From contig NZ_LT160639.1 in NCBI RefSeq assembly GCF_900048895.1, forward strand, positions 191,001 through 255,000: 64,000 nt of DNA. The letters run 5' to 3'. This DNA is from Neglectibacter timonensis (GTDB lineage: Bacteria; Bacillota; Clostridia; Oscillospirales; Acutalibacteraceae). The notes beneath the pieces are model-generated. The model did no database searches. It saw nothing but the letters and a program-made list of their open reading frames with translations, and had not been told where the DNA came from. Every line of letters begins with the position of its first letter. Position 1 is the first letter of the stretch. The translations under genes were made by a program, and so were the position numbers. Shown here piece after piece: positions 1-61,280 of this stretch.

Positions 1-112
1 CTATTTTTTATATTTTATCATATGAAATTGTCCTTCTCAAGGCTGTTTGGTGAAGCTGACGGAATTTTTACCAGCAACGCTTATCTACAGCAGGGGCTTT
101 CAAAGCATTTAA

Positions 113-140
113 TTGTTTTTTTCGAAAAAAGTGCTATAAT
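113..140 (+). promoter_or_regulatory. Sigma-A-type promoter for the small ORF
   Basis: A TTGTTT -35 (113-118), a 16-bp spacer and a perfect TATAAT -10 (135-140) precede the ORF that starts at 180. This is seen directly; activity is inferred. Confidence 0.6.
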
Positions 141-179
141 ATGATTATAAAAACCGCTCTGCGACGGAGGTGAAAAAAA

Positions 180-355
180 TGGCAGAAGCAAATTTTGATT
201 ATTCAGTTGCGGCAGAGGCCAAAATGCTGGCGTTGGAGTATATGCGCCAGAAGAGCCTGACCGATGATTCTCCCGAAGACATTGCCCGGGAATACAGGAT
301 GGTAGAACAGAAAATCAAGGCCGCACTTGATTCTCTCAACGGCGTGACTCTCTAA
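180..355 (+). CDS. Small acidic helical protein, unknown function
   Basis: This 58-residue protein begins at ATG 180, nine bases after a GGAGG at 166-170. An upstream GTG at 170 lies inside that ribosome binding site and is an unlikely start. The protein is charged, probably all-helical, and has no membrane segment, cysteine pair or recognised motif. It has its own promoter and is followed by hairpins, so it looks like a free-standing gene rather than an operon member. I do not recognise the family and infer no function. Confidence 0.6.
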
Positions 356-366
356 ATTCCAAACTG

Positions 367-399
367 AGCGCGCCACAGCTTCATTGGCAGCGGCGCGCT
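367..399. terminator. Weak inverted repeat after the small ORF
   Basis: Eight-base arms AGCGCGCC (367-374) and GGCGCGCT (392-399) can pair across a 17-base loop. Only two T residues follow, so termination at this point would be weak. The stronger hairpin at 469-519 lies just downstream. Confidence 0.35.
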
Positions 400-468
400 T
401 CCCATCACCCCTGTACACGGACCTGCCGGTTTTGCAGCAGTCTGATTGCATAATCGGCACAGATAACG

Positions 469-519
469 AAAAGCCCGCGTTGGGCCGGACACTATGGTAT
501 CCGGCCGGCGCGGGCTTTT
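469..519. terminator. Bidirectional terminator
   Basis: Arms AAAAGCCCGCG (469-479) and CGCGGGCTTTT (509-519) pair perfectly, with an inner GGCCGGA/TCCGGCC stem. The A-run at the left and T-run at the right suit termination in both directions. It would serve the small ORF on the plus strand and the beta-helix gene ending at 632 on the minus strand. The 276 bases between these genes otherwise hold nothing recognisable. Confidence 0.75.
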
Positions 520-631
520 CTATTCTCCTGGAATTCGTCAGGGGTGAACGTATGTGCAAAGCCTTCTTTGCCGTGCTTCCCATTGGATATAGTTTTGATT
601 CCTGTTGAAACAATTTGGATTTTTTCTGTTG

Positions 632-3523
632 TCAGAGTTTCACCGCATACAGGGAGCCTCGGGCTGTAACAGCCAGATAGGTTCCGCCTGCCGACGCCAA
701 AAGGCAGGTAGGCCGTTCCGGGAGAGAAAGCTTCCGAAGTTCCTCCCCTTCTTCATTGAAAACATAGAGGTGTCCGTCCGCCACGCAAATGCTGTTTCCC
801 GCACGCACTGCGCTGAACTCACCGTGTTCTGCAAAATCCTCCTGCCGGGAAAGTGTGCCGTCCTTTTCAACATGCATCCGGAGCACCCTCTTATCATATT
901 CGTCCACAGCATAGAAAAACTCGCCGGGGACAGCCGCCTGAAGCGATACTGCACGTCCAAGGTCAAAACTGTCTGCCAGCAGGGTCTTTCCGTCAGGCGC
1001 GGTGTAGAAGGAACTGTAGCGATACATAACAGCTTCCTTAAAATCATGGGCATCGTGCCAGCGATGGGCAGGATAATAGACAGCGGCCGGGTTTTCTGTT
1101 TTGGCAGGGCCTGCTTTCAAAACCACCATAGACGCCTCCGGCGCGTCAGGGTCTATCGCATAGACGCCGACAGCCTGATCACGCATATACCAATGATAGG
1201 AGGAACCCCGGGCTTCCTCTGGAACCGGCTCACCGTAGGGATGCTGCTCCGGTTTCGGAAGTTTACGGTAAGCCACTACCACAAGCCTGTCTTCCGAATC
1301 ACAGAACAGGGATAGCGGCTTCAAAGGAAACTTTGCCGCAGGACGCAGCTTTCCGGTTTCCCCTTCATAGGAATAGATTTCCAAGTCGTCACAGAAGTAA
1401 ACAGTGCCCTTCTTATTCGCGCACAGGGCTCCGGCAAAACGGAACCCGTCCGCAAGCTTTGTAACCTCCTGTATGCAAGCTGGTTTGACCGTCCCAGTGC
1501 CGGGCAGCATCAGCCTGGCCAACTCCCAGGGCAGGACCGCCTTCCCCGAATCCCGCTCCAACAGCGTATTGTCAATGGTATAGGGCGTTTGCGTATAGTT
1601 ATGCACATTCAACAGTTCCACGTTCCTGCTCCCCCAGCTCAAAACAGCCTGCGGATAGGGATTCGCCACCCATACTACCCGGAACGTGTAGAGATTGACA
1701 AATAGAAGGTTTTCACAGTCAATGAGTTCCAAAGGTTGGCACTCCGGACTTTCCGCCACCTCTTCCTCCGTCTGCAGCGCATAGAAGCGCCAGTTGGAAA
1801 CCTTTTTCAGCCTTACCTCAGACTGCACATGATGCTCCACAGACACCGCATACATGCGCCCCGGAACCGCTGTATCGGAAAGATAGATACCAGCTTCCGC
1901 ATAGGAACTTGCACTCCATATATCTTTGAAGACACCTCCGCCGTTCTCTGCAATCCAAAGGCTCCAATACTGCGTACTCCAAAGCCTGTCGGGATCTACA
2001 TCGCCTGTACGGCTCTCATTGTATACCGGGGCAAATTCCACCCCCCGGGTCATTTTGCCGTGCCCTCCCACAAATTTTACGTCATTCATATAGGAGTTCC
2101 GGCCGGCAATCCACTTACAGCCCACCGCTCTGGGATTACGTCCGGCCGTATCCAGGCCTATGCCGTTTACCAGGTTGAATCCGGAAGACGTTTCCAGCAA
2201 CGGCTTTGGAGTTCCAAAACCGGAAAATGCAGGCGTATCGTCCCAGAGGACAAGCTGCGTCGAGACAGGGTTCATTCCGATAAAGGAAGTACCCTCAGCC
2301 ATTTTCACGGTGTCCGCGGCACGATAGAAGCCCTGAGGGAAAAACACTGCCTTTCCCGACTGTGCCGCTTGGCATAAAGCATCGGTATCATCGGTCTTCC
2401 CATCCCCCACAGCGCCAAAGGACTTGACACTGATCCATTCCTTTTGGGCAGGCAAGCCAGGAAGGTCGCTCGCCGCCGCATCCGGCCAGAAGTCAATCTC
2501 CTCCGATTCCAAAGCCGTACGAAGTTTAGGCTCCTCTTCAGGAGAATCCATGCACAGGCCGTTGAGAAAACGGTGCACCCGGTAAACTTTTCCTTCTGGA
2601 CAAATCTCTCTTCCGCTCTCCTTCAGCTTTGCCAGCACCGGCGTATCCCTGCAGACCACATTCCGCAGATTGACCTGGGTCATGGCGTTCTTTTCCCGGC
2701 CAAAGAGCAGGGCCGGTCCGGAAATAGCATCAAACCTGCTGTCCTCCAGGTACAGTTTTTCAAAATAGCCATCTTTCACTTCCAACACAGTGGGGCAGGA
2801 AGATACCTCTGTACGGATCAGGACAAGGCCCCCCTCCCTGGAGGAAATAGCCGCCCTGCGCTGCCCCCGGAATGTGCTGTCGGCCAGCAGGAACGGCCAG
2901 CCGGGGGAAGGTTTCCCGGTGATGATTCCGTAATCCCCTCCTGTAAAGGAAAGGTTCTCCATTTCGTTGCCAACCGCAACAATTCCGGCCTTGCCCTCTC
3001 CAATTTCAAAATCGCAGTGAGAGACAAAGCAGTGTTGGGCAAAGTGGGCGCGGATTACAGCGGCACAGGGATTCCCCTCTCTTATTTCAAAATCCAGATT
3101 GGAAACTGCGCTGTAAAAGGTTCCGGGATTGGCGTCTGCAATCTCCTGGGGACCCGCCGGCATGTTATTTGTGAACCAAAACATGTAGTGCGCATCGCCC
3201 AGATCCTCTGGTGCTGGGCTTTGAAAGCCAGGGGAATGGGGACGCAGGACAAATCTCGGCCTGTTTTCCCCATATCCGATCAGCCGGATCGCCTTGGGGA
3301 TATAAACAGTTTTTGTCATGTAATAAATTCGTTCCGGGATATAGAGGACACCGAACCCTCTTTCCCGTTTCAACTCAAATATAGCCTCCTGCAGCGTATC
3401 GCTGACATCCAGCTCCGGATCGCGGAGCGCTGGGTAAAAATCCGCTGTAAAATGATAGGCCTGGGGATCACAAAACGCTTGAGAATATTGAGAAACACCC
3501 CGGCGTTCCAGATGACTCTGCAT
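632..3523 (-). CDS. Double beta-helix (GH55/pectate-lyase-3-like) protein with C-terminal beta-propeller
   Basis: This 963-residue protein has two pectate-lyase-3-type right-handed beta-helix starts. One lies at about residues 40-90 (a pattern of YIPERIYY and TVYIPKAIRLIGYG). The second, at about 365-420, carries the signature GAVGDGKTDDT followed by VFFPQGFY. Tandem helices of this kind are typical of GH55 exo-beta-1,3-glucanases, whose usual length is about 750 residues. The extra C-terminal 270 residues show repeated short beta-strand blades resembling an SMP-30/NHL propeller. No signal peptide is visible, so a cytoplasmic location is inferred. Its ATG lies 20 bases after the GH16 stop, with AAGGAG before it, so the two are co-transcribed. 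Alternatives are another polysaccharide lyase or a GH28-related enzyme; I cannot place the catalytic residues. Confidence 0.75.
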   Translation of the reverse strand: MQSHLERRGVSQYSQAFCDPQAYHFTADFYPALRDPELDVSDTLQEAIFELKRERGFGVLYIPERIYYMTKTVYIPKAIRLIGYGENRPRFVLRPHSPGFQSPAPEDLGDAHYMFWFTNNMPAGPQEIADANPGTFYSAVSNLDFEIREGNPCAAVIRAHFAQHCFVSHCDFEIGEGKAGIVAVGNEMENLSFTGGDYGIITGKPSPGWPFLLADSTFRGQRRAAISSREGGLVLIRTEVSSCPTVLEVKDGYFEKLYLEDSRFDAISGPALLFGREKNAMTQVNLRNVVCRDTPVLAKLKESGREICPEGKVYRVHRFLNGLCMDSPEEEPKLRTALESEEIDFWPDAAASDLPGLPAQKEWISVKSFGAVGDGKTDDTDALCQAAQSGKAVFFPQGFYRAADTVKMAEGTSFIGMNPVSTQLVLWDDTPAFSGFGTPKPLLETSSGFNLVNGIGLDTAGRNPRAVGCKWIAGRNSYMNDVKFVGGHGKMTRGVEFAPVYNESRTGDVDPDRLWSTQYWSLWIAENGGGVFKDIWSASSYAEAGIYLSDTAVPGRMYAVSVEHHVQSEVRLKKVSNWRFYALQTEEEVAESPECQPLELIDCENLLFVNLYTFRVVWVANPYPQAVLSWGSRNVELLNVHNYTQTPYTIDNTLLERDSGKAVLPWELARLMLPGTGTVKPACIQEVTKLADGFRFAGALCANKKGTVYFCDDLEIYSYEGETGKLRPAAKFPLKPLSLFCDSEDRLVVVAYRKLPKPEQHPYGEPVPEEARGSSYHWYMRDQAVGVYAIDPDAPEASMVVLKAGPAKTENPAAVYYPAHRWHDAHDFKEAVMYRYSSFYTAPDGKTLLADSFDLGRAVSLQAAVPGEFFYAVDEYDKRVLRMHVEKDGTLSRQEDFAEHGEFSAVRAGNSICVADGHLYVFNEEGEELRKLSLPERPTCLLASAGGTYLAVTARGSLYAVKL

Positions 3524-3543
3524 ATTGATTCACTCCTTCGATT

Positions 3544-4287
3544 TTAAACCTTCTTTTGAGACACCCTCACAGATTCCACTTCCATGGTAAAGGGCAGCGC
3601 TTCCGCCTCCACTTCACCGCCCCAATCTCCTCCAACCGCAACATTTAGAATTAAGTAAAACGGCTTGTCAAACGGCCAGCCTGTCTTTCCAGTTTCAAAG
3701 CCAGGCTCTTCCCTGTAAAAGCAGGCGATCTCTGCCCCATCATAGCGGAAACGCATAGCCTCCGGCGTCCATTCCAGCTCATAATCGTGGAAAACGCCTG
3801 ACACATCTTCCAAAACTACAGAGCTGCTCCGCTGTGTCTTTCGCCTGTGGTTATAAAGCCCGCTGTGGATCGTGGCATGGACCCGGTTTTGATCCCATCC
3901 CACATGCTCCATAATATCGATTTCCCCGCAGAGCGGCCAGTCCGCATCTCCCCTGCAGTCATTGGGCATCATCCAGATAGCAGGCCAGGACCCCTTCCCT
4001 TTGGGCAGCTTTGCCCGTACCTGCACTTTGCCGTACTGCCAATCAGCTTTACCGGCCGTGGTAAGCTTGGCGGAAGTATAGGCATGCCCGTCACGCTCCT
4101 GTTTCCGTGCGGTGATCCGGAGTTTTCCTCCCTCCACACACACGTTTTCCGGTTCCGCTGTATAAAACTGAAGTTCATGGTTTCCGAACCCTCCGCCGGA
4201 TACCACGCAGTTCCATTTTTCAGGATCCGGCATGCCCTCCCTGTCAAAAGAATCCTCCCAAACCAGGCAGTACTCATCCTTTATCAT
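3544..4287 (-). CDS. GH16 family endo-beta-glucanase (laminarinase/lichenase type), cytoplasmic
   Basis: This 247-residue GH16 domain contains the catalytic motif GEIDIMEH, giving nucleophile E122, D124 and acid/base E127. Upstream are the family landmarks YTAEPENV, YGKVQVRAKLP and WPAIWMMP. Members cleave internal bonds of beta-1,3 or mixed-linkage glucans, though agarases and carrageenases share the fold, so the substrate is inferred. The protein starts straight into the mature domain and has no signal peptide. That fits hydrolysis of oligosaccharides already imported by the divergent ABC transporter. The start is supported by AGGAGGAG seven bases upstream. It is the first gene of a two-gene leftward operon with the beta-helix protein. 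Confidence 0.9.
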   Translation of the reverse strand: MIKDEYCLVWEDSFDREGMPDPEKWNCVVSGGGFGNHELQFYTAEPENVCVEGGKLRITARKQERDGHAYTSAKLTTAGKADWQYGKVQVRAKLPKGKGSWPAIWMMPNDCRGDADWPLCGEIDIMEHVGWDQNRVHATIHSGLYNHRRKTQRSSSVVLEDVSGVFHDYELEWTPEAMRFRYDGAEIACFYREEPGFETGKTGWPFDKPFYLILNVAVGGDWGGEVEAEALPFTMEVESVRVSQKKV

Positions 4288-4486
4288 ACAATCTCCTCCT
4301 GTCTAACATTCCTGAAGGGCAGACAGCCCTTCCCTGTTTCTTACCTTAACACGGCCCGGCAGAAAATGAAACGGGGCATATTTCCCTGAAGGTGTCTGTT
4401 TTTTCTCACTGTAGAATTCCACCACTGAAAGACAGTCCCTCTGGGCGCAAGAATAAATTTAGACACCTAATACAAAAAATGACGCA

Positions 4487-4515
4487 TTGTATCCGTCTGT
4501 TTTTGTCCTTATAAT
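4487..4515 (+). promoter_or_regulatory. Promoter of the sugar ABC operon
   Basis: TTGTAT (4487-4492), a 17-bp spacer and TATAAT (4510-4515) lie 44 bases before the first permease start. This sits in the 271-bp divergent region between the GH16 gene and the transporter. No clear minus-strand promoter was found there. Confidence 0.7.
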
Positions 4516-4558
4516 ACTTTATGAACACAATATTAACAAGAAACGGAGGACACAGCTT

Positions 4559-5503
4559 ATGGTATCTGCGCCAGCGAAAGCAGAACGGAAATCCGCCCAT
4601 CCGAAGCTTCAGGGCTTATGGAAGCAGCGGTACCTTCAGCTGATGGTCATCCCCGGCATCATCTGGATGTTTATTTTTAACTACATACCAATGGTCGGGA
4701 TCGTGATCGGATTCAAAAACTTCAAAATCACCAAATCCATCTGGGAAGCGCCCTGGGTGGGGTTCGAACATTTCGCCGCCTTTTTTCAGGACGAAAGTTT
4801 CGGGAACATTATGGTGAATACCCTGGGAATCGCTCTATTGAAGCTTCTGATCTGTTTCCCGCTCCCCATCCTCTTTGCCATTCTTCTCAACGAGCTCAGG
4901 AGCGTAAAATTCAAGCGCGTGGTGCAGACCATCTCCTATCTGCCTCACTTCTTATCCTGGGTGGTTTTAGGAGGCATCATGATCACTTGGCTCAGCGACG
5001 TAGGCATGATCAATGAAATCCTGGTAGGCGCCGGCATCCTGAAGGAACCCATCACCTTCCTGGCGGAGCCAAAATATTTCTGGGGTCTGGCGGTAATCAG
5101 CGACCTGTGGAAGGAAATGGGCTGGTCCGCCATCATCTACCTGGCGGCAATTTCTGGTATCGACCAGTCCATGTATGAGGCTGCTACCGTAGACGGCGCC
5201 AACAAGATCCAAAAGATCTGGAACATCACGCTTCCCGCCATCCGGGGCACCATTGCCATCATGTTCATCCTAGCGGTCTCCGGCATCATGAATTCCAACT
5301 TTGATCAGATCTTTATTCTGAAAAATGTGCTGAATGCGCCGCGCAGCGAGGTAATCGACACCTACGTTTACCAAATGGGTATGCGTGTGGGCCGCTATTC
5401 CTACGCCACTGCTATTGGTCTCTTCAAATCGGTAGTGTCCATGATTCTGCTTGTAATTGCCAACTTTACCACATCAAAGCTTCAAGGCAGTTCCCTGTTC
5501 TGA
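4559..5503 (+). CDS. lplB: LplB/YteP-type ABC sugar permease
   Basis: This 314-residue membrane protein is an inner-membrane permease of the CUT1 polysaccharide/oligosaccharide importers. It has about six hydrophobic segments starting with IPGIIWMFIFNYIP, and the EAA loop YEAATVDGANKIQKIWNITLP that docks the ATPase. The ATG at 4559 is chosen because GGAGGA precedes it by nine bases; 24 further in-frame codons upstream overlap the promoter. It forms an operon with the second permease (49 bases on) and the binding lipoprotein. No ATPase gene is nearby, as is usual for this family, which shares a MsmX-type ATPase encoded elsewhere. Confidence 0.92.
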   Translation: MVSAPAKAERKSAHPKLQGLWKQRYLQLMVIPGIIWMFIFNYIPMVGIVIGFKNFKITKSIWEAPWVGFEHFAAFFQDESFGNIMVNTLGIALLKLLICFPLPILFAILLNELRSVKFKRVVQTISYLPHFLSWVVLGGIMITWLSDVGMINEILVGAGILKEPITFLAEPKYFWGLAVISDLWKEMGWSAIIYLAAISGIDQSMYEAATVDGANKIQKIWNITLPAIRGTIAIMFILAVSGIMNSNFDQIFILKNVLNAPRSEVIDTYVYQMGMRVGRYSYATAIGLFKSVVSMILLVIANFTTSKLQGSSLF

Positions 5504-5551
5504 GCCCTCTGAGGAAGCTTTCGATATCTTACTAATAAAGGAGAGAGACTA

Positions 5552-6451
5552 TTGGCGGCAGCAACAAAAAACTGGCGTAAGCAGCGCACTACCGGCGAAA
5601 TTATCTTCGATGTCCTGATCGTCATATTGATGTGCGCTATCTGCTTCATCACTATATACCCTATCTGGTATGTCATTGTAAATTCCTTTAACGACGGAGC
5701 CGACGCCATGCGCGGCGGAATTTTCTGGTGGCCCCGCGTGTTTTCCCTGGAAAACTACAAGACCGTGTTCAAAGACAGTTCCATCCTCACTGCTTTCGGC
5801 GTGACGGTGCTGCGAACTCTTGTGGGCACTGTGCTCAATGTTTTTTTCACGGCTATGGTAGCTTACGGTCTGTCGAAGACCCGACTCATCGGGCGCAACT
5901 TTTACCTGACTATGGGAATTATCACCATGATGTTCAACGGCGGTCTGATTCCCACTTTCCTGCTCTACAAAAACCTGAATCTGTTGGACAACTTTCTGGT
6001 GTTCGTCATCCCCGCCATGTTCAGCTTTTATAACGCCATCATTTTCATGAGCTTCTTCCGGGAGATCCCCGCTTCCCTGGAAGAATCTGCTGAAATCGAC
6101 GGAGCCAACGACTTCCTTATTTTTTTGCGGATCATCCTTCCTCTCTCGAAACCGGTGCTTGCCACCATCGCCCTGTTCAGCGGCGTCTACCATTGGAACG
6201 ATTATTTTTCCGGTGTAATCTATATTAACAAGCCTTCCCTTCAGCCCATACAAACCTATCTGTACCGGATGGTGGCGGAGGCGGGTTCCAACCAGATGGC
6301 GGCCCAGACGGCGGATGTGGTAAAATCCACCACCTCCATGTCTCTGAAGCTGGCTACCATGGTAGTCACCACGTTGCCTATTGTCTGTGTCTATCCATTC
6401 CTGCAGAAATATTTCGTCAAAGGTATGATGATAGGCGCAGTAAAAGGATAA
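5552..6451 (+). CDS. lplC: LplC/YtcP-type ABC sugar permease
   Basis: This 299-residue partner permease has a TTG start, preceded by AAAGGAGAGAG. It shows six transmembrane segments, an EAA-loop equivalent (EESAEIDGANDFLIFLRIILPLSKP) and the characteristic C-terminal GMMIGAVKG ending of LplC proteins. With LplB it would form the heterodimeric channel for an oligosaccharide, plausibly a beta-glucan fragment given the adjacent GH16 gene. The binding protein gene follows after 23 bases. Confidence 0.92.
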   Translation: MAAATKNWRKQRTTGEIIFDVLIVILMCAICFITIYPIWYVIVNSFNDGADAMRGGIFWWPRVFSLENYKTVFKDSSILTAFGVTVLRTLVGTVLNVFFTAMVAYGLSKTRLIGRNFYLTMGIITMMFNGGLIPTFLLYKNLNLLDNFLVFVIPAMFSFYNAIIFMSFFREIPASLEESAEIDGANDFLIFLRIILPLSKPVLATIALFSGVYHWNDYFSGVIYINKPSLQPIQTYLYRMVAEAGSNQMAAQTADVVKSTTSMSLKLATMVVTTLPIVCVYPFLQKYFVKGMMIGAVKG

Positions 6452-6474
6452 ATCTCAATCAAAGGAGAATCGCT

Positions 6475-8157
6475 ATGAGAAAGACAAAAAAATGGCTGGC
6501 CGCGCTGCTCGCTGCAGCTCTGCTGGTCAGTACAGCCGCCTGCGGCAGCCCTTCCTCCTCCGGCAGCTCTTCCGAGAGCTCAAAGGGCAGTTCCTCTGCT
6601 TCTTCCGCCGTATCCCAGGAAGGGTCGGAACCCAGCACGGCAGACGTGTCCGACGCCGAGCCTGGCTGGAAGCAGCATGCCGACGAGCCGATCACCCTGC
6701 AGTGGTACGTGAACTATTCCTGGTTCCCGAGAAAATGGGAGGGCTCTAAAGCCACGGAAAAGTACATAAAGGATACCGGCATCAATGTGGAGCTGATCAT
6801 CCCCGCAGGTAACGAGGCGGAGAAGCTCAACACCATGATCGCTTCCGATACCCTGCCCGACCTGATCACTCTGGGCTGCACCGATACCCAAGTAGCTGAA
6901 ATGATCGATGCTGAGATGGTATTGCCTCTGAATAAACTTGCGGATGAGCACGATCCCTATTTCTACAAGGTTGCCAATCAGGAACGTCTGGACTGGTACA
7001 CCCAGGATGACGGCAACGTCTACGGCTATCCCAATGCCTCCTATTCCTTCAGCGACTATGAGAAGTACGGCAACATCCCCTCCAACCAGGTTTACATGGT
7101 CCGCAAGGATATGTACGAAGCGTTGGGCAAGCCCGACATGACTACGCCAGAGGGCTTCGTCAATACTCTGGTTGCGGCGAAAGAAAAGTTCCCGGACGTG
7201 GACGGCAGCCCGCTGATCCCTCTGGGCACCCACGAATTCGGGGACACCGGCTGCTGGGCATTGGAATCATACCTGCAGAACTTCCTTGCCATCCCCTATG
7301 AAGTGGACGGCAAGTGGTATGACCGGTATACCGATCCCGAATACATCACATGGCTGAAAGCGCTGCGCGAATGCGGAGAAAAAGGCCTGCTGGCCAATGA
7401 CATCTTCGTTGACAAGCGTTCCCAGATGGAGGAAAAGATCGTTCAGGGCCGCTACTTCTCCATGCTCTATCAGAGAACAGATATGGCAACCCAGCAGAAG
7501 ATTGTCTATGAAAATGATCCCGAAAAGATCTATATTGCCATTGACGGTCCCAAAAATTCCAAGGGTGACGATTACACCCTGCCCGGCGGCAGCATCCAGG
7601 GCTGGACTCTGACCATGATCGGTGCCAACACGGAACACCCGGACCGCTGTATCCAGTTCTTCTCCTATTTCATGGAGCCTGAAACCCAGATGACCATGCA
7701 TTTCGGCCCTGAGGGCGTCGGTTACACCATGGTTGACGGCAAGCCCAAGTGGATTGAAGAGGCCAAGGAACTCAGCGACAAAGACACCGACGCCTTTGAA
7801 AACCAGATCAACGGCGGCATGTGGATGCTTCTGGATTACGCCATGCAGCTTGAATGGTCTGATCCGCCCAAAGACCCCCTCGGCCAGCTAGAAGAGTGGA
7901 CTTATGACTACGCTTTCAACCCTTCCGTTTACAATATTACAACGCCTGCCGCAGATTCGGAAGAAATGACGATAAAGACCAACATCGAAGCTCTGTGGGG
8001 GAAAACCCTGCCGAAACTGTTGCTCGCTCCTACAGAAGAAGAATTCGATCAGATCTTTGAGCAGTGGAAGAAGGACCGCGACGCTGCTGGATTTGACAAA
8101 TGGATGGCTTATCAGCAGGCCCAATATGAAAAGAATAAGGAAAAGCTTGGTCTTTGA
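6475..8157 (+). CDS. lplA: LplA-type extracellular oligosaccharide-binding lipoprotein
   Basis: This 560-residue solute-binding protein has a lipoprotein signal (KKWLAALLAAALL, lipobox STAAC, lipidated Cys23) followed by a serine-rich linker. The mature part resembles the large family 1 binding proteins, with DTLPDLITLG and aromatic-rich segments suited to sugar stacking. It is the last gene of the transporter operon and would deliver substrate to the two permeases. A strong terminator follows at 8198-8225. Confidence 0.92.
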   Translation: MRKTKKWLAALLAAALLVSTAACGSPSSSGSSSESSKGSSSASSAVSQEGSEPSTADVSDAEPGWKQHADEPITLQWYVNYSWFPRKWEGSKATEKYIKDTGINVELIIPAGNEAEKLNTMIASDTLPDLITLGCTDTQVAEMIDAEMVLPLNKLADEHDPYFYKVANQERLDWYTQDDGNVYGYPNASYSFSDYEKYGNIPSNQVYMVRKDMYEALGKPDMTTPEGFVNTLVAAKEKFPDVDGSPLIPLGTHEFGDTGCWALESYLQNFLAIPYEVDGKWYDRYTDPEYITWLKALRECGEKGLLANDIFVDKRSQMEEKIVQGRYFSMLYQRTDMATQQKIVYENDPEKIYIAIDGPKNSKGDDYTLPGGSIQGWTLTMIGANTEHPDRCIQFFSYFMEPETQMTMHFGPEGVGYTMVDGKPKWIEEAKELSDKDTDAFENQINGGMWMLLDYAMQLEWSDPPKDPLGQLEEWTYDYAFNPSVYNITTPAADSEEMTIKTNIEALWGKTLPKLLLAPTEEEFDQIFEQWKKDRDAAGFDKWMAYQQAQYEKNKEKLGL

Positions 8158-8197
8158 GCCCTGTTTTCCATGTTTCAAAGCTCGTTCTGACAGATAG

Positions 8198-8225
8198 AGA
8201 GCGGCCCGATTTTTCGGGCCGCTCT
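8198..8225 (+). terminator. Rho-independent terminator of the transporter operon
   Basis: Twelve-base arms AGAGCGGCCCGA (8198-8209) and TCGGGCCGCTCT (8214-8225) flank a TTTT loop. They are followed by a T-rich run (TTTCTTTTTTTC). Confidence 0.9.
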
Positions 8226-8304
8226 TTTCTTTTTTTCTAACAAGCAACGACAGTCCCCTATGATTTGATTTTTTATCCAGAACACGATGTCGTTTACTGG
8301 ATAT

Positions 8305-8332
8305 TTGTTGGCTAATATGTTAGAATTATAAC
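8305..8332 (+). promoter_or_regulatory. Likely promoter of the sensor/regulator pair
   Basis: TTGTTG (8305-8310), a 16-bp spacer and TATAAC (8327-8332) sit about 105 bases before the sensor kinase start. The predicted transcript would begin at the edge of the paired hairpins that follow. Confidence 0.45.
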
Positions 8333-8337
8333 TGCCC

Positions 8338-8384
8338 CAGGGGCTTTTCTTTAGAAAAGCCCCTGGAAACGGTATACCGTTTCC
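8338..8384 (+). promoter_or_regulatory. Two abutting perfect hairpins in the sensor-kinase leader
   Basis: CAGGGGCTTTTC (8338-8349), loop TTTA and GAAAAGCCCCTG (8354-8365) form a perfect 12-bp stem. It runs directly into a perfect 20-bp palindrome at 8365-8384 with core ACGGTATACCGT. CCCATTTTTGGGG follows. The second stem plus T5 could act as a terminator or attenuator. A mobile intergenic repeat or a protein operator are alternatives. Confidence 0.6.
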
Positions 8385-8436
8385 CATTTTTGGGGTTCCT
8401 CCCGGTTCACGCATTCCCACCTGTGAGAGTGATACC

Positions 8437-10233
8437 ATGAAAAATCAATACCAAAGGTTCCGTCTGAAATACCAGCTCCTGCTAATCGTGATCATCGTAT
8501 TTCTGGTGCCTACTCTGTTTTTTTCCATTGTCCTGCTGAACAATTATGCCCAGTCGCAGATGGAGCAATCAATTAAATCCGCCCAGTCCGCCTTGGAAAA
8601 AAGTGCGGCACAGGTGGAACAGAATGCTCAGGCCTGCGTACTGACCACCCAGAGTTTTCTGAACAACCAGGGCCTCACGGCAGCCCTCCAAAAATTTGTT
8701 TTGGAAGAAAACACCAACGCCCTGGAACTGCTGGATTTCAAGCTGACAGAGGTCACTGCCAATGACCGGCTGATCAACAACAACCCTTACCTGTATCAAG
8801 CTCGCATCTATATGGACTCTGACAGGATTACCGAGATCATGCCGCTGCTGTACAACAGGCGCCGCATGCAGCGCCAACCCTGGTATCAGAAGGAGCGCAG
8901 CCTGATGGAAGGCTGGCACTTCAATTATTCGGACCGGCTGTTCGACTCTGAATCCTGGAACAATGAGCAGCATCTGGCTTCCCTGGTATCCTGCTGCTAC
9001 AGCTTTGACGGCATGTATCTGGGAATCCTGGAAGTATCCACCCGGATGGATCTGCTGTTCCCCACTTTATTTCAAAATGACAAGGAGACCTGGAACGGCT
9101 TCCTGACCACAGACGGCCGCCTCTATTACAACACCGGGGATGTTCCATGGGAACCTGAAACAACCTCCATTCTCAGCCAGCTGGACGCCAACCGGGCAGA
9201 GCCTCAGCACTCAATCCAAAAGACAGAGAAGGGAACCTACATACTCTGTTACTATCCGTTGTCCGGCCTGCCAGGCGGTCTTGTTACCGCCTCCCGGCTG
9301 GATGAAAAGATGCAGGGAATTAAAACCACGCAAAATCTGCTGGTAACAGGAATTGTGCTTTTAGGAATCTGTTTCTGCCTCTTCATCAGCAAGCTGATAG
9401 ACATGGTGCTGAAGCGGTTTTACAGAGTGGTGTCCGCCATTGAAAGCATTCAGTCCGAAAACCTCAGCGTAGAGATACCTGAGACCGGAAATGATGAAAT
9501 CGGTATTCTCGCTTCCAGTATCCGGCGTATGACAGAGCGCATTCAGGTTCTGGTTTCAGAGAGCGTTCAGAGAGAACGGCTGATCAAAGATTCCGAAATC
9601 AGGGCGTTGCAGAACCAGATCAATACCCATTTTATTTACAACGTGCTGGAATCCATAAAAATGATGGCAGAAATTGATGAGAAGTATGATATTTCCGATG
9701 CGGTCACTTCTCTTGGGAAGCTCCTGCGCTACAGCATGAAGTGGTCCTCTCCTCTGGTGACTGTGGGAGACGAGCTGGAATATATCCGTAACTATATCTC
9801 TCTGATGAGACTGCGGTATGATTACAGCATCTTTCTTACCATTGAAATCCCCAAGGAGCTTTTGGATCAGCACATTCCTAAAATGTCCCTGCAGCCCATC
9901 ATAGAAAACGCGATTTATCATGGGATAGAAGGCTTGCCAGAGGATGCCACGATCAAAATCCAGGGGTACCGCTGCCAAGTGGACAACGAGGACGCTTTCC
10001 GCATTGAAATTACGGATTCCGGCCGTGGCATGACAACTGAACAGCTTACTGCCCTGCAGGACCGCATTGACGGCAGAAGTCCTGACAATCCCAGCTCCAG
10101 TCATGGTATCGGTCTGAAAAATGTACAGGACCGTATCACACTCTTTTTCGGTGCTTCCTACCGGTTGCAGGTAGCGGCGGAAAAAGACCGCTATACCCAG
10201 GTATCCATAACCGTCCCCTTCTGCGAAAACTGA
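8437..10233 (+). CDS. yesM: YesM-like sensor histidine kinase
   Basis: This 598-residue membrane kinase has TM segments at about 13-35 and 302-322, with a large extracellular sensor between. A HAMP domain follows at about 325-380, then a His_kinase (PF06580) box with H398 and a HATPase domain with N-box PIIENAIYHG and GxG motif SHGIGLKNV. Family members sense extracellular sugars or binding-protein complexes and phosphorylate the partner YesN. The H-box reads QINTHFIYN, where most relatives have Pro before His. The ribosome binding site is weak (GAGAG). The gene lies just downstream of the LplABC operon and 75 bases before its regulator. Confidence 0.93.
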   Translation: MKNQYQRFRLKYQLLLIVIIVFLVPTLFFSIVLLNNYAQSQMEQSIKSAQSALEKSAAQVEQNAQACVLTTQSFLNNQGLTAALQKFVLEENTNALELLDFKLTEVTANDRLINNNPYLYQARIYMDSDRITEIMPLLYNRRRMQRQPWYQKERSLMEGWHFNYSDRLFDSESWNNEQHLASLVSCCYSFDGMYLGILEVSTRMDLLFPTLFQNDKETWNGFLTTDGRLYYNTGDVPWEPETTSILSQLDANRAEPQHSIQKTEKGTYILCYYPLSGLPGGLVTASRLDEKMQGIKTTQNLLVTGIVLLGICFCLFISKLIDMVLKRFYRVVSAIESIQSENLSVEIPETGNDEIGILASSIRRMTERIQVLVSESVQRERLIKDSEIRALQNQINTHFIYNVLESIKMMAEIDEKYDISDAVTSLGKLLRYSMKWSSPLVTVGDELEYIRNYISLMRLRYDYSIFLTIEIPKELLDQHIPKMSLQPIIENAIYHGIEGLPEDATIKIQGYRCQVDNEDAFRIEITDSGRGMTTEQLTALQDRIDGRSPDNPSSSHGIGLKNVQDRITLFFGASYRLQVAAEKDRYTQVSITVPFCEN

Positions 10234-10308
10234 CCATGGTTACGGCAGCATTGGAGCAGCAGAATTGCAGGGCAGAAATTTTCCCAACAGAAAGGTGTGC
10301 GTTATTCT

Positions 10309-11766
10309 GTGAAAAGACTTTTGATCGTGGAAGACGAGAAAATGATCAGACAGGGGCTGCGGGTAATGGCGCAACGCTCTCCGGTGGAAATTAGTGAAAT
10401 TCTGGACTGCAAAAACGGAGAGGAAGCACTGGAAATCCTGCGCGGCACAGAGGTGGATGTGATGTTTACCGACGTCCGTATGCCCAATATGGACGGCATT
10501 ACTCTGGTTCAAAGGCTGCAAACCCTCCCCCATCCGCCTCTCACCGTCATCATCAGCGGATATGACGATTTTTCTTATGCTGTGGAGGCGCTTCGCTGCG
10601 GCGCCAAAGAATACCTGCTCAAACCGGTGGAACGGGAGGACATTTCCCAGGTCCTGCAGCGGCTGGAGGGGATGCTGCAGGAATCCCAGAAATCCCGTTC
10701 CCGGCCAAGCCCCCAAGGTGTTGGCTGTCAGCCGCTGAAATATTTTCTTCTCAATCCAAACGTCACTACTTCCGAGCGAGAGGCCGCCAGGGTCCTGTTT
10801 GAATCTTGGGTGGAAAAAGGACCTTACCTTGTGGCAGCCTGCAGGGAGAAGCTTGAATCCCCAGGAGCGGACCTGCCCTTTCTTTGTCTGGAAAACGTGG
10901 ATGATACGGCCTGCCTATATTTGATCCGGGAACCGCAGTGGCCACATCTAGCCGCGACCTGCTTTGCTGGAAAAAGGGCCGGCCTAAGCCGCCCCCAAAC
11001 AGATTTTTCCCAATTGCCGGAAGCCTGCCGCATCGCTGTGGAATGCTGGACCCGAGCTTTCCTTACCGATGCGGAATTGATTCAACCTAACGGGATGCCG
11101 GAACAGGAGGCTCCGCCGCTCTCCCAGGAGGATGCGGCGCGGATAGCACAGCTGATAGGGACAGAAAAGTTGGATCAGGTTCAGGCCTTGCTGGACAAAT
11201 TCTTTCTTTTGGCCGGCTCCGGTAAACTGTCCGGAGTCTCTTTCAGCGGCAGCATTGCCAATCTGCTTCATCAGGTGGAAACCCTGTATCGGAACAAGCT
11301 TGCCAACAGGGTGGACCGGCTTCATCCCCTGTATCATCCTTATTCCTATCCTTCCCTGCAGGACTTTCAGACTGCCCTTTGGAATTTTCTCACAGAAGCC
11401 AACAAAAGTATCCTACAGCAGCACAGCGCCTCTCGCAAGACCGGAAAGATGGAGGAGGCTGTGGCTTATATCCAGCAGAATTACCAAAGGGACCTGAACA
11501 TGGCCATGGTTTCCAACCACATCTCTGTCAGCTATTCCTTTTTCTCCCAAGCCTTTAAAGAATATACTGGCATGAATTTCATCAATTATCTTAAGGATCT
11601 CCGCATTCAGCATGCGAAAGAACTGCTGGTTACCACCGACCTGCACATCGCTGAAATCAGCCTGCAGGCAGGCTTCGAAAATGAAAAGCATTTCATGAAG
11701 GTATTCCGCAGCATGGTGGGCGTTTCCCCTACCGAATACCGCAGGAACACCGGCAAAAAGAGCTGA
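10309..11766 (+). CDS. yesN: YesN-like response regulator, AraC-type DNA-binding domain
   Basis: This protein of about 485 residues has an N-terminal receiver domain with acceptor D55 (FTDVRMPN) and the conserved Lys of YLLKPVE. A long central linker leads to a C-terminal AraC double helix-turn-helix (about 385-480, ending VGVSPTEYRR). The start is taken as GTG 10309, giving VKRLLIVEDE; an in-frame GTG at 10297 is too close to AAAGG to be used. It probably activates the divergent glucanase and transporter promoters. A bidirectional terminator follows. Confidence 0.92.
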   Translation: MKRLLIVEDEKMIRQGLRVMAQRSPVEISEILDCKNGEEALEILRGTEVDVMFTDVRMPNMDGITLVQRLQTLPHPPLTVIISGYDDFSYAVEALRCGAKEYLLKPVEREDISQVLQRLEGMLQESQKSRSRPSPQGVGCQPLKYFLLNPNVTTSEREAARVLFESWVEKGPYLVAACREKLESPGADLPFLCLENVDDTACLYLIREPQWPHLAATCFAGKRAGLSRPQTDFSQLPEACRIAVECWTRAFLTDAELIQPNGMPEQEAPPLSQEDAARIAQLIGTEKLDQVQALLDKFFLLAGSGKLSGVSFSGSIANLLHQVETLYRNKLANRVDRLHPLYHPYSYPSLQDFQTALWNFLTEANKSILQQHSASRKTGKMEEAVAYIQQNYQRDLNMAMVSNHISVSYSFFSQAFKEYTGMNFINYLKDLRIQHAKELLVTTDLHIAEISLQAGFENEKHFMKVFRSMVGVSPTEYRRNTGKKS

Positions 11767-11794
11767 GCCGCAAATCTATCTCCTCCGCTGTGGC

Positions 11795-11842
11795 AAGAAA
11801 ATGCCTGAATTTCCCTCTCGGGGCAACTCAGGCATTTTCTTA
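11795..11842. terminator. Bidirectional terminator between yesN and rlmH
   Basis: AAGAAAATGCCTGA (11795-11808) pairs with TCAGGCATTTTCTT (11828-11841). A/T runs lie on both sides, between convergent genes. Confidence 0.85.
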
Positions 11843-11872
11843 TTCGGAAAGCAGCAGCGGAAATGCTGTCCC

Positions 11873-12343
11873 TTACTTGTGGTATTTGGTATGGTTCAAG
11901 ATCTGAAATGCCCGGTATAGCTGCTCGCAAAGCATTACCCGAGCCAGTTGGTGCGGAAAGGTCATCTCTGACATGGAAAGTCCCTCTCCCGCCTGCTTGA
12001 CATGCGGGGAGAGGCCATAGGAGCTGCCGATTGCCAAGGTAACGGCGCCTGGGGACTGCATGGCTGCAGACAATCGTCTGGCAAACCCTTCAGAACCCGT
12101 CTGTTTTCCCTCGATGCAAAGTGGGATCAATTGCCCGGCCGACTGCTTCAGAATCGCCTCCCCTTCCCGCTCCAGGGCGGCTTGAATTTGGGCGGAAGAA
12201 GGATCGGAAGGCAGCCGTTCTTCCGGAAGCTCCCTGATTTCAAACTTGCAAAACGGCCGCAGGCGCTTTTCATATTCCGCCACCGCCTCACGCCAATAGG
12301 TCTCTTTCAGCTTTCCTACACACACCAGCCTTACAGTGAACAC
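11873..12343 (-). CDS. rlmH: 23S rRNA pseudouridine-1915 N3-methyltransferase
   Basis: This 156-residue SPOUT methyltransferase modifies pseudouridine 1915 in helix 69 of 23S rRNA. Diagnostic features are VCVGKLKE at the N-terminus, the SAM-binding trefoil knot IGSSYGLSP, and the C-terminal FPHQLARVMLCEQLYRA ending in YHK. The start is a GTG (12343) preceded by GGAGGA; the longer ATG-started frame would begin inside that ribosome binding site. WalJ lies upstream, a pairing common in Firmicutes. Confidence 0.95.
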   Translation of the reverse strand: MFTVRLVCVGKLKETYWREAVAEYEKRLRPFCKFEIRELPEERLPSDPSSAQIQAALEREGEAILKQSAGQLIPLCIEGKQTGSEGFARRLSAAMQSPGAVTLAIGSSYGLSPHVKQAGEGLSMSEMTFPHQLARVMLCEQLYRAFQILNHTKYHK

Positions 12344-12501
12344 CAGAAATTCCTCCATCTTCAAACTACTGAAACAAAACCACGCTTTCCACCGGCGTCA
12401 TTTCGCCCCTTTTGTACAGAGATTACAGTCAGACAGGGCCTCCCGTTTTTCTCTGTAAAAGGTTTTTGACCCGCCTGTTTCCACAACAGATTTGGCAATT
12501 T

Positions 12502-13284
12502 CTAAAAGATCATAGTTTTCCCATCCGTATTCTCCGGTCTGGCGGCATCCAGCAAGAAATCTACATTGGGGACATAACCCGCTTCCACAAGCGAGGCAAG
12601 GGCGGTTTCCAGCGCAATGGCACGCGTGTTATTTTCCCTGCTCAAATGCGCCAGCAAAATCCGCTTCGTGCCGCTCCTGGCCAGCTTCGGCAAAAACGCA
12701 GCGCAAGCCGCGTTGGAAAGATGGCCCCGGTCTGACAGGATACGCCGTTTCAGATGATAGGGGTATCCCCCGTTACGAAGCATCTCCACATCATGATTGG
12801 ATTCAATCACTGCGAAATCTGCCCCCAGCAGGTTTTCCATCACTTCCTCTGAAAGGCATCCCAGATCCGTGGACAAGGTAAAACACCTGTCGTCCTCTGT
12901 TTTAATCCGAAATCCCAGGGATTCCGCACAGTCATGAGACGTGTGAAAGGGTGTGACCGTCATATCCGCCAACTGCATCCCCGTTTCCGCCACATGAGTT
13001 TCCGCATCCGCCAAAGCCCCTTCCAATGCCTGCAGGGTCCCCTGGGAGGCAATGATGGGCAGATGATATTTTTTGGCAAACACCCGCACGCCATTGACGT
13101 GATCCGTATGCTCGTGAGTGAGCAGAATTCCCTGAACCGCCAACGGGTCAATCCCGCAGACGCGCAGCATGTTGTCCAGCTGCCGCGCACTGCGGCCGGC
13201 GTCGAGCAGCAAACCTGCGCTTCTTGAACCTATGTAATAGCTGTTCCCTGAGCTTCCGCTGAACAGGGGGCATAACCTTGCCAT
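12502..13284 (-). CDS. walJ: WalJ/YycJ-type metallo-beta-lactamase-fold hydrolase
   Basis: This 260-residue MBL-fold protein has the metal-binding signature THEHTDH at about residue 57, a second His (SHDC) and a downstream Asp. YycJ/WalJ proteins are 5'-3' exonuclease-like and linked to cell wall/DNA replication coordination by the WalRK operon. Here no walRK genes are visible, but rlmH follows as in many Firmicutes. It starts MARLCPLFSGSSGNS, the usual beginning of the family. Confidence 0.92.
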   Translation of the reverse strand: MARLCPLFSGSSGNSYYIGSRSAGLLLDAGRSARQLDNMLRVCGIDPLAVQGILLTHEHTDHVNGVRVFAKKYHLPIIASQGTLQALEGALADAETHVAETGMQLADMTVTPFHTSHDCAESLGFRIKTEDDRCFTLSTDLGCLSEEVMENLLGADFAVIESNHDVEMLRNGGYPYHLKRRILSDRGHLSNAACAAFLPKLARSGTKRILLAHLSRENNTRAIALETALASLVEAGYVPNVDFLLDAARPENTDGKTMIF

Positions 13285-13314
13285 ACAAATATCCTCGTTT
13301 CTGCAATCGCTAAA

Positions 13315-13343
13315 GCAGGGAAACCCAATTCGGGTTTCCCTGC
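13315..13343. terminator. Hairpin between murA and walJ
   Basis: GCAGGGAAACCC (13315-13326) and GGGTTTCCCTGC (13332-13343) pair perfectly over a five-base loop. The run of T is poor on the minus strand, so termination after murA may be partial. Confidence 0.6.
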
Positions 13344-13360
13344 AGGTTTTTCAAATGAAT

Positions 13361-14650
13361 TCAGCCGATCTTGTCCAGTGTACGTTCCGGCTCTTCCATC
13401 CGGTAAATATCAGCGCCAAGCTCTACCAGCTTCTCCACAATGTTCTCGTAGCCGCGCTCGATATACTGTACATCCTCTACCTGCGTGGTGCCTTCCGCTA
13501 CCAAACCGGCAATCACCATCGCCGCGCCTGCGCGGAGATCCAGCGCCCGAACAGGAGCCCCTTTCAGACGGTCCGCACCTTCTACAATGGCCACCTTGCC
13601 ATCCACTGTGATCTGTGCTCCCATCCGTCTGAGCTCGTCCACATATTTAAAACGATTATTTTCCCATACGCTCTCGTTTACCATGCTCGTCCCCTTCGCA
13701 ACGGAGAGAAGCGTCGTGATCTGCGGCTGCATATCCGTAGGAAAGCCGGGGTGAGGCATAGTCTTTACATTGCACTTGCGCAGAGGCCGCTCACATAAAA
13801 CGCGGACAGTGTCGTCCCCTTCTTCTATAGTGACGCCCATTTCCACCAGTTTTGCAGAAATAGATTCCAAATGCTTCGGCGTCACATTTTTCACAACCAC
13901 ATCGCCGCCCGTAGCCGCCGCAGCCACCATGTACGTACCCGCCTCAATCTGATCGGGAATGATGGAATAAGTGACGCCGCGCAGCCGCTGCACCCCATGA
14001 ATCTTAATGGTGTCAGTACCCGCCCCGCGGATATCCGCCCCCATTGTGTTTAAAAAGTTGGCCAAGTCTACAATGTGGGGCTCCCTGGCGGCATTTTCAA
14101 TTACTGTAAGCCCTCTTGCCTTTACAGCAGCCAGCATGATATTCATCGTCGCGCCTACGGTGACCACATCGAGATAGATATTGGCTCCGTGAAGGTCGTT
14201 TTGAGCGGAGACGGAGATCATGCCGTTATCAAGGCTGTAATCACAGCCCAGGGCCACAAACCCCTTCAGGTGCTGGTCAATGGGCCGTACGCCAAAATTA
14301 CAGCCGCCCGGCAGCGGCACCACGGCATTGCGGCAGCGCCCCAGCAGTGCGCCGATAAAGTAATACGAAGCACGGATGCGGCGGGCAATCTCTGCCGAAA
14401 CAGTGTCTGTCATAATGGGACGGGGATCGATCTCCACGGTATGAAGATCCAGGTATTCCACTCTGGCTCCCATTTCTTTCAGGATATAGGTGAGTGTTTT
14501 CACGTCGGAAATATCCGGGATATTCTCGATGCGGCAGGGAGAATCTGAAAGAATCACAGCGGGGAGAATGGCCACTGCTGCATTTTTGGCTCCGCTGATA
14601 TTTACTTCGCCTGTCAGACGGCATCCGCCTTTGATCACGTATTTATCCAA
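13361..14650 (-). CDS. murA: UDP-N-acetylglucosamine 1-carboxyvinyltransferase
   Basis: This 429-residue MurA catalyses the first committed step of peptidoglycan synthesis, adding enolpyruvate from PEP to UDP-GlcNAc. The fosfomycin-reactive Cys is present at C117 in LPGGCNFGVRP, and ISGAKNAA near the N-terminus is also conserved. The start is taken as TTG 14650 (DKYVIKGG), with AGGAAG seven bases before it. A TTG 30 bases upstream has no ribosome binding site. It is transcribed from the promoter at 14732-14760. Confidence 0.95.
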   Translation of the reverse strand: MDKYVIKGGCRLTGEVNISGAKNAAVAILPAVILSDSPCRIENIPDISDVKTLTYILKEMGARVEYLDLHTVEIDPRPIMTDTVSAEIARRIRASYYFIGALLGRCRNAVVPLPGGCNFGVRPIDQHLKGFVALGCDYSLDNGMISVSAQNDLHGANIYLDVVTVGATMNIMLAAVKARGLTVIENAAREPHIVDLANFLNTMGADIRGAGTDTIKIHGVQRLRGVTYSIIPDQIEAGTYMVAAAATGGDVVVKNVTPKHLESISAKLVEMGVTIEEGDDTVRVLCERPLRKCNVKTMPHPGFPTDMQPQITTLLSVAKGTSMVNESVWENNRFKYVDELRRMGAQITVDGKVAIVEGADRLKGAPVRALDLRAGAAMVIAGLVAEGTTQVEDVQYIERGYENIVEKLVELGADIYRMEEPERTLDKIG

Positions 14651-52201: not shown

Positions 52202-52984
52202 ATGGCGCTTTTGAGCGTAAACAATCTGAAAAAGGTGTATACCTCCCGGCTTGGCGGGACTCAGGTAAAGGCACTTTCCAGCGTAAGCTTCACAGTGGAA
52301 AAGGGAGAATTCGTGGCAATCATGGGCGAATCCGGCTCCGGCAAGACCACCCTGCTGAACATCCTTGCGGGGCTGGATAAACCCACAGGCGGCGAAGTGT
52401 TTCTGAACATGCGCAACATCGTCACGCTGGGGGAAAAGGAGATGTCCGCCTTCCGCCGCGACAACCTGGGCTTCGTGTTCCAGGACTTCAATCTGCTGGA
52501 CACCTTCTCTGCACAGGACAACATTTTTCTGCCGCTGGTGCTGGCAGGGAAAAAATACGGCGAAATGAAGAACCGCCTGGATCCCATCGCCCAAAAGCTG
52601 GGCATCACGGACATCCTGCAGAAATACCCTTACGAAATTTCCGGCGGCCAGAAGCAGCGCACGGCCATCGCCCGGGCTATCATCACACAGCCCCAGCTCA
52701 TCCTGGCCGACGAGCCCACCGGCGCGCTGGATTCCCGCTCCTCCGACCAGATCATGAATATTTTCTCCGAAATTAACCAGGACGGCCAGACCGTTCTGAT
52801 GGTCACCCATTCCACACGCGCCGCAAGCTGTGCCAGCCGTGTGCTGTTTATCAAGGACGGCGAGGTCTTCCACCAGATTTACCGTGGCGGCCAGAGCCAG
52901 GATGAGATGTACCAGAAGATTTCCGACACGCTCACCGTACTGGCCACCGGGAATGCGGAAAGGGGCGTTACAGCAAATGGCTAA
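52202..52984 (+). CDS. bceA: BceA-type ABC ATPase
   Basis: This 260-residue ATPase has Walker A GESGSGKTT, signature YEISGGQKQRTAIARA, Walker B LILADEPTGALDS and an H-loop His. The type is MacB/BceA, used for peptide-antibiotic resistance or sensing. AAAGGAGAGAG precedes ATG 52202. It overlaps the permease gene by eight bases. Confidence 0.94.
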   Translation: MALLSVNNLKKVYTSRLGGTQVKALSSVSFTVEKGEFVAIMGESGSGKTTLLNILAGLDKPTGGEVFLNMRNIVTLGEKEMSAFRRDNLGFVFQDFNLLDTFSAQDNIFLPLVLAGKKYGEMKNRLDPIAQKLGITDILQKYPYEISGGQKQRTAIARAIITQPQLILADEPTGALDSRSSDQIMNIFSEINQDGQTVLMVTHSTRAASCASRVLFIKDGEVFHQIYRGGQSQDEMYQKISDTLTVLATGNAERGVTANG

Positions 52985-58633: not shown

Positions 58634-58664
58634 AGCGCTTTTTCCGATGGAAAGAAAGGTTGAA

Positions 58665-58710
58665 AGAAGAAGCAGAGGCTGCAATTTGCTTTGCAGCCTC
58701 TGCTTCTTCT
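58665..58710. terminator. Terminator between the ABC operon and leuS
   Basis: Twenty-base perfect arms at 58665-58684 and 58691-58710 flank a 6-base loop. They would stop transcription from both convergent sides. The core is AGAAGCAGAGGCTGCAA. Confidence 0.9.
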
Positions 58711-58779
58711 TATGAATTCAGAAAACGCCTTATGCCTTCCAAACTCTGGTCCGAATCCGTTCCAACCTGCAGGAACAGG

Positions 58780-61194: not shown

Positions 61195-61280
61195 TCGACC
61201 TTTCCATGATTTATCCTAGTTTTTATCCGATCCTGCGCCTGTCCGGGCGGCAGCGTATACAAACGCACAGCCGCATTCTG

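Follow-up and report, generated by a model that had tools for sequence, protein, structure and literature searches.

The window analysed here is a stretch of 64,000 nucleotides from Neglectibacter timonensis (contig NZ_LT160639.1, positions 191,001 to 255,000), and at positions 632-11766 it contains a putative carbohydrate utilisation locus. Two enzyme genes, encoding a GH16 glycoside hydrolase and a GH55-like protein of 963 amino acids (aa), form a minus-strand unit divergent from lplB-lplC-lplA, after which yesM-yesN follow, see Table 1. The LplABC/YesMN gene naming is used for the ATP-binding cassette (ABC) importer and the sensor pair. The enzyme genes are separated by 20 bases and match PF00722 with 79.6 bits (cut-off 22) and PF12708 with 79.5 bits (cut-off 27), respectively. 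Both permeases carry PF00528 (56.9 and 55.6 bits, cut-off 26.4), while the sensor pair contains His_kinase (84.4 bits), Response_reg (89.2 bits) and HTH_18 (80.3 bits). The start of lplB is ATG 4559, set by the ribosome-binding site ggagg at 4545-4549. The genes that define a Gram-positive polysaccharide utilisation locus, i.e., a regulator, an oligosaccharide importer and glycoside hydrolases, are thus linked here.

Table 1. Features of the locus, in window positions, and clusters around plasmid homologues, in positions of their own records.
Feature	Position	Strand	Remarks
Probable terminator downstream of the GH16/GH55-like pair	470..520	-	hairpin by eye, partly in the computed site list
GH55-like protein, 963 aa	632..3523	-	PF12708; two-beta-helix module at about residues 10-675, C-terminal propeller at about residues 683-963
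Codon of E586	1766..1768	-	alignment to MnLam55A Glu-614 (general acid)
Codons of E563-H564-H565	1829..1837	-	alignment to GH55 MnLam55A
GH16, laminarinase-like, 247 aa	3544..4287	-	PF00722; EIDIME at residue 122
LplB-type ABC permease, 314 aa from ATG 4559	4559..5503	+	PF00528
LplC-type ABC permease	5552..6451	+	PF00528
LplA-type lipoprotein solute-binding protein, 560 aa	6475..8157	+	AlgQ1/AlgQ2-type relatives
Intrinsic-terminator-like hairpin downstream of lplA	8196..8227	+	14 pairs, T tail
YesM-type sensor histidine kinase, 598 aa	8437..10233	+	PF06580, PF02518, HAMP
YesN-type response regulator with AraC-type helix-turn-helix, 489 aa	10297..11766	+	PF00072, PF12833
Plasmid cluster L106	9191-14961
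Plasmid cluster L107	1294-5658
Plasmid cluster L108	11300-16229
Plasmid cluster L109	2233-8677

The original prediction, made by a model from the DNA letters, had described both enzymes as lacking signal peptides and hence cytoplasmic. The lack of signals is confirmed, and a cytoplasmic location thereby supported, by the open frames, which have 252 aa for the GH16 (247 called) and 965 aa for the GH55-like protein (963 called). With only 5 and 2 extra codons available, no earlier start can add a signal peptide to either enzyme.

Among solved structures the best match of the GH16 is the laminarinase 3iln (E 4e-70). The second and third matches (6xof and 6xqf) are named merely 'GH16 family protein'; the list at E 0.001, 46 matches long, has laminarinases and beta-1,3(4)-glucanases near its top, e.g., 7ww4 at E 5e-60, and contains 9vmv as a further beta-1,3-glucanase. 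Judged by these relatives, the enzyme is of the laminarinase type. An identity as agarase or carrageenase was rejected, as no match is so named in that list of 46. The ExDxxE motif, which we take to be the catalytic motif of GH16, is intact. The gene is the sole GH16 detected in the genome by the Pfam model PF00722.

The relationship of the 963-aa protein to GH55 is genuine by profile, fold and alignment. A profile of 15 homologues has 3eqn and 5m5z, both of GH55, as its top matches at E 6e-23, while the next match is at 6e-10 and MnLam55A at 3e-8. The AlphaFold2 model (predicted local distance difference test score, pLDDT, 85.3; predicted template modelling score 0.88) aligns to 3eqn with Z 32.3 and a root-mean-square deviation of 2.8 Å over 610 residues at 18% identity, and to the other GH55 structures 5m5z, 8jhh and SacteLam55A with Z 32.1, 30.7 and 23.1. 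In the alignment to 3eqn the two tandem beta-helices form one rib-cage unit, as in GH55, whereas the non-GH55 structures listed in the fold search span only about residues 18-346, i.e., the first helix. A search of the PDB with the catalytic half by itself, residues 517-650, gave just two ribosomal-protein matches at E 0.9, while the longer piece 380-612 found MnLam55A at E 5e-9. The identity of a plain GH28 or pectate lyase was rejected, since PF12708 is a general beta-helix model and GH55 structures lead by both profile and fold.

The catalytic residues can be placed by alignment to MnLam55A, whose residue roles are taken from an excerpt of PMC10637969. Glu-591, which activates the water, corresponds to E563, His-592 of subsite -1 to H564, and the general acid Glu-614 to E586. 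These three residues are kept in all 32 rows covering these positions in an alignment of 33 rows, and Q163, Q221 and F136 are present in 33/33, Q163 being the alignment candidate for the proton-relay glutamine of the N-domain (MnLam55A Gln-172). The protein thus shares with GH55 structures the two-beta-helix fold, both glutamates and the histidine. It differs from them in sequence (over the aligned part, identity is 16-19% with the three from fungi and 10-11% with SacteLam55A), in the loss of an assisting tyrosine, in an extra C-terminal propeller and in its cytoplasmic location. Both the label GH55-like (profile E 6e-23, fold Z 31-32) and the catalytic motifs of the original prediction are borne out: the GH16 motif is complete, and the GH55-like protein keeps the acid glutamate and the Glu-His pair.

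Folded alone, residues 682-963 form a propeller (pLDDT 88.7). Its best structural match is the gluconolactonase 3dr2 (Z 17.2, 209 residues), but NHL domains and Pizza proteins, which are designed propellers, score equally well (Z 17.2 to 16.5 for the three kinds). The Pfam family SGL scores 18.3 bits in the window protein, below the cut-off of 26.3, and 47.8 bits, above it, in a relative from genome G412. One clade of the GH55-like tree, six rows of about 660-710 aa (L101, L102, L103, L104, L105 and L045; support 100/100), is without a propeller, so that this module is optional in the family.

In LplA no Pfam family scores above cut-off. Its nearest solved relatives are solute-binding proteins, namely AlgQ1 and glycosaminoglycan-binding proteins at E about 3e-13 to 5e-13 and AlgQ2 at about 3e-12, the overall range extending to 6e-12. 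LplA shares with the AlgQ1/AlgQ2 type similarity over about 390 residues and a comparable size. According to the excerpted preprint PMC12710961, AlgQ1, AlgQ2 and FusA belong to Cluster G, which prefers trimers or larger, while the glycosaminoglycan-binding protein is a structural neighbour outside it. The calcium motif DPNGNG, given there for the AlgQ1/AlgQ2 type, is absent as a string from LplA. The relation to binders of large oligosaccharides would fit the import proposed below. LplA is also 50% identical to a solute-binding protein near a GH55-like gene in Paraliobacillus (L022), and the genome holds 21 matches to LplA including itself, the others being weak. Pfam and these relatives agree with the LplABC importer and YesMN pair of the original prediction, with gene order and coordinates unchanged.

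Two functions are supplied, if at all, from elsewhere. None of the ABC ATPase matches of the genome falls in the locus, and one UgpC/MsmX-type ATPase above cut-off is found at C14:806234. Similarly, the locus contains no GH3 gene, and seven are found elsewhere in the genome, at least two of them (L075 and L078) with seemingly signal-less starts, the remaining starts being poorly read. GH1 has no match in the genome, GH1 and GH3 being the finishing families covered. The claim that the locus is self-contained therefore fails, as neither a transporter ATPase nor a GH3 glucosidase is matched within it. It is one cassette of a generalist. Otherwise the original interpretation is supported in part, by the cytoplasmic location of both enzymes, a laminarinase-type GH16, a GH55 relationship and a binding protein of the large-oligosaccharide type; its substrate is plausible.

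Among the genomes of 99 relatives of N. timonensis, its own included, 10 have any GH55-like match at E 0.001, and in 5 of these 10 the match is long (G000, G007, G028, G059 and G075). At E 1e-20 a match is found in 6/391 genomes of the class and 10/394 of the order (own genome included; the samples overlap). A scan of public genomes, limited by peptide patterns, gave 17 loci. The comparison covers 34 separate places, of which 33 are rows of the tree and one is the partial L038; L023 (identical to G197) and L029 (identical to G365) are each counted once. YesMN, LplBC and a solute-binding protein lie beside the GH55-like gene at five of them: the window, L040, L041, L042 and L043. Two paralogues in the own genome (50% and 48%) lie in such importer/sensor cassettes without a GH16. 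Partial importer contexts consist of YesMN and a binding protein in L022, LplBC and a binding protein in L024, and a binding-protein fragment in L069, while in L029 a YesMN-like pair adjoins an ABC system of another kind.

The surroundings of these genes show some further features. In Lachnospiraceae and a Eubacterium, a lipoprotein-like protein of 604-610 aa comes directly after the GH55-like gene (L031 5005-6819, L032 12941-14770, L034 12898-14727, L037 12907-14739) and an aldo-keto reductase also follows, both neighbours being read by eye; a Pfam scan of the L037 protein found no family. Another related neighbour, of 650 aa and without a Pfam family, occurs in L026 and L028. In the paralogous cassette L040, a ureidoglycolate-lyase-like protein of 139 aa (12372-12791) stands between the GH55-like gene and the binding protein. 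The Chitinophagaceae homologue in L027 (9953-12955) is split over two frames, with an ADP-ribosylglycohydrolase-family gene nearby. In two Clostridiaceae metagenome-assembled genomes (L023 and L029, about 8726-14486) the GH55-like gene has housekeeping neighbours that look RecA-like and MurJ-like by eye.

We suggest, with moderate confidence, that the window holds a Gram-positive utilisation locus for soluble beta-glucan fragments, its predicted substrate, with the GH16 and the GH55-like enzyme cutting inside the cell. The YesMN-type two-component system would sense an oligosaccharide, and LplA would pass beta-1,3- or mixed-linkage gluco-oligosaccharide chains to LplBC, presumably powered by the shared UgpC/MsmX-type ATPase encoded elsewhere. 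Large chains could then enter intact, and the endo-acting GH16 would cut internal beta-1,3 or mixed 1,3/1,4 bonds in the cytoplasm. The GH55-like enzyme would trim the pieces, judging from its fold and catalytic residues probably as an exo-enzyme from the non-reducing end, and cytoplasmic GH3 enzymes encoded elsewhere may finish the degradation to glucose. Support independent of the window comes from G412 (L069). There the GH55-like gene adjoins the binding-protein fragment and belongs to a run of genes on one strand, of which one is TIM-barrel isomerase-like, one fucose-isomerase-like, one encodes a class II aldolase and two encode GH5 enzymes. One of these GH5 has the exo-beta-1,3-glucanase 6zb9 as its best solved match (E 8e-88).

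Several observations weigh against this proposal. The window GH16 (tblastn, E 1e-5) lies beside a GH55-like gene at 1/34 places, whose flanks range in length between a few bases and about 10 kb. The neighbours of the relatives are varied: a GH2 follows the gene in G075 (L044), the aldolase and isomerase-like genes accompany it in G412, and gluconokinase and gluconate symporter genes do so elsewhere. Because of these neighbours and the paralogues without GH16, the locus is no proof that beta-1,3-glucan is used. SacteLam55A, a bacterial GH55, is absent from the 26 profile matches and is reached by fold alone. The assisting tyrosine that orients the acid (MnLam55A Tyr-617) is V589 here, and the position is variable in the clade, with tyrosine in 2 rows; since this highly conserved feature fails, the protein is called GH55-like and not filed in GH55. 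The tryptophan and aspartate of subsite -1 (MnLam55A Trp-552 and Asp-557), considered together with the aromatic block, have two placements: W523/E526 by alignment (W523 in a second alignment too) or, following the order of strands in the model, the surroundings of W536. It is therefore uncertain whether subsite -1 takes up glucose. Promoter-like sites in 1-12400 are at chance level (10, against 10.5 in shuffles), and no promoter is assigned between the divergent operons. An alternative is that the GH55-like enzyme forms the core of the cassette and acts on a glycan other than plain beta-glucan, the GH16 having joined late and broadened the range of substrates. The paralogues and the relatives in G007 and G028, all in YesMN/LplABC cassettes without GH16, the rarity of the GH16 next to GH55-like genes, the lost tyrosine and the GH2 in G075 all point in this direction. 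However, a laminarinase-type GH16 lies only 20 bases away, an exo-beta-1,3-glucanase-like GH5 is found near the G412 relative and the catalytic glutamates of GH55 are retained, and we regard this explanation as rather unlikely. A narrower form of the beta-glucan proposal, overlapping in probability with the other explanations, is that only mixed-linkage (1,3;1,4) glucan is used, as in Blautia producta. In its favour, PMC10318527 (excerpt) describes a gut Firmicute whose GH16_3 is active on mixed-linkage glucan; but a GH55-like exo-enzyme would contribute little where the bonds are 1,4, and several of the nearest named GH16 structures are laminarinases, which leaves this restriction unlikely.

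A further explanation arises from homologues on alphaproteobacterial plasmids, in Sphingomonas (two), Sphingobium and Asticcacaulis, with 31-34% identity in alignments that cover 94-97% of the query. The three annotated records label them 'glycosyl hydrolase family 28-related protein'. Beside them lie a gluconokinase (4/4), a gluconate symporter (3/4) and a FadR/GntR regulator (3/4), as annotated in these three records and by tblastn only in L109; the stretch of L107 ends at the end of its record. TonB receptors stand beside or near the homologues in the three annotated records. A PcLam55A fragment, searched against the plasmids for a typical bacterial GH55, gave no match. It can be speculated that the GH55-propeller group, which spans Bacillota, Bacteroidota and Alphaproteobacteria, is an undescribed kind of enzyme in which a beta-helix glycosidase is joined with a lactonase-like propeller. 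Such enzymes would release gluconate or its lactone, either from the oxidised ends of glucans or once glucose has been oxidised. The version in the window would then be a cytoplasmic one that is supplied by the importer and acts together with an endo-acting GH16. Besides the plasmid neighbours, this idea can draw on the SMP-30/gluconolactonase-type proteins among the structural matches of the propeller. It is nevertheless improbable: gluconolactonase, NHL and designed propellers tie structurally, and the plasmid homologues are only 31-34% identical and have signal peptides by eye. Moreover, the gluconokinases and symporters of L106 and L108 together with the regulator of L106, searched against other loci by tblastn at E 1e-3, found only a 53-residue match in the GH3 locus L073, a search that would miss other kinase types and did not cover the FGGY-like kinase end of L027. 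Sphingomonads oxidise glucose in the periplasm, and may simply do so with the glucose released. Finally, the enzymes might be extracellular, set free by lysis or exported by a non-classical path. Within the genus, the GH16 relatives closest to that of the window, in G004 (50%) and G016 (46%), are lipoprotein-like at the N-terminus, and GH55-like homologues of Bacteroidota (L026 and L028), of L025 and of the alphaproteobacteria carry N-terminal signals, all by eye. In the window, however, both enzymes are signal-less together and lie opposite an importer, and the GH16 of G088, from the same order, is likewise without a signal by eye, which makes an extracellular role very improbable.

The hairpins after lplA and after the gene of the 963-aa protein suggest three transcription units, with yesMN apart; against this, the 13 terminator-like sites of the region are at the level of shuffled sequences (14.1). 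On one side the neighbours scanned encode an RlmH-type methyltransferase and a metallo-beta-lactamase-fold protein, and on the other an alpha/beta hydrolase, an S58 peptidase and a GGDEF protein; Pfam found no glycoside hydrolase among these five. Elsewhere in the window, plus-strand frames of 719 and 988 aa (52830-54989 and 58243-61209) lie opposite frames of 406 and 804 aa and are probably shadow frames.

The beta-glucan locus proposed here resembles known utilisation loci in kind. In the excerpt of PMC4765114, the aldouronate cluster of Paenibacillus sp. JDR-2 combines an ABC importer and regulators with three intracellular glycoside hydrolases, including an endo-acting GH10. Its importer feeds intracellular hydrolases, and it is therefore a precedent for import first and endo cleavage inside; its substrates are, however, xylan fragments, cut by GH67, GH10 and GH43. 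The mixed-linkage glucan locus of Blautia producta (PMC10318527) is likewise from a Firmicute and has a GH16, a binding-protein-dependent ABC importer and cytoplasmic finishing enzymes. It differs in that the GH16 is anchored outside the cell, a GH94 phosphorylase and a GH3 finish the degradation, and no GH55-like gene appears in the locus as described in the excerpt. The GH161/GH94 loci, e.g., of Bacillus weihaiensis and Acholeplasma laidlawii (PMC6484121), share the ABC uptake of beta-1,3-gluco-oligosaccharides, most of their importers lack an ATPase gene of their own and some clusters include a GH16, but phosphorolysis by GH161/GH94 takes the place of the GH55-like enzyme. The original prediction had known of no described example of this gene set, and among the matches listed none of a cytoplasmic GH16/GH55 locus was evident in open-licence PMC titles and abstract starts. 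For the gluconate link, the matches listed (10 of 16) all concern lytic polysaccharide monooxygenases or oxidised cellulose by title or abstract start.

To this Gram-positive-type bacterium the locus would offer a way of using beta-glucan fragments that starts in the cytoplasm, in contrast to the GH16 outside the cell in the excerpts of PMC10318527 and of PMC4765114, where all three GH16 enzymes of Paenibacillus JDR-2 are predicted to be secreted. Of greater interest is the little-studied GH55-propeller clade: the locus points to an uncharacterised group of GH55-like propeller proteins, annotated as 'GH28-related' in three plasmid records.

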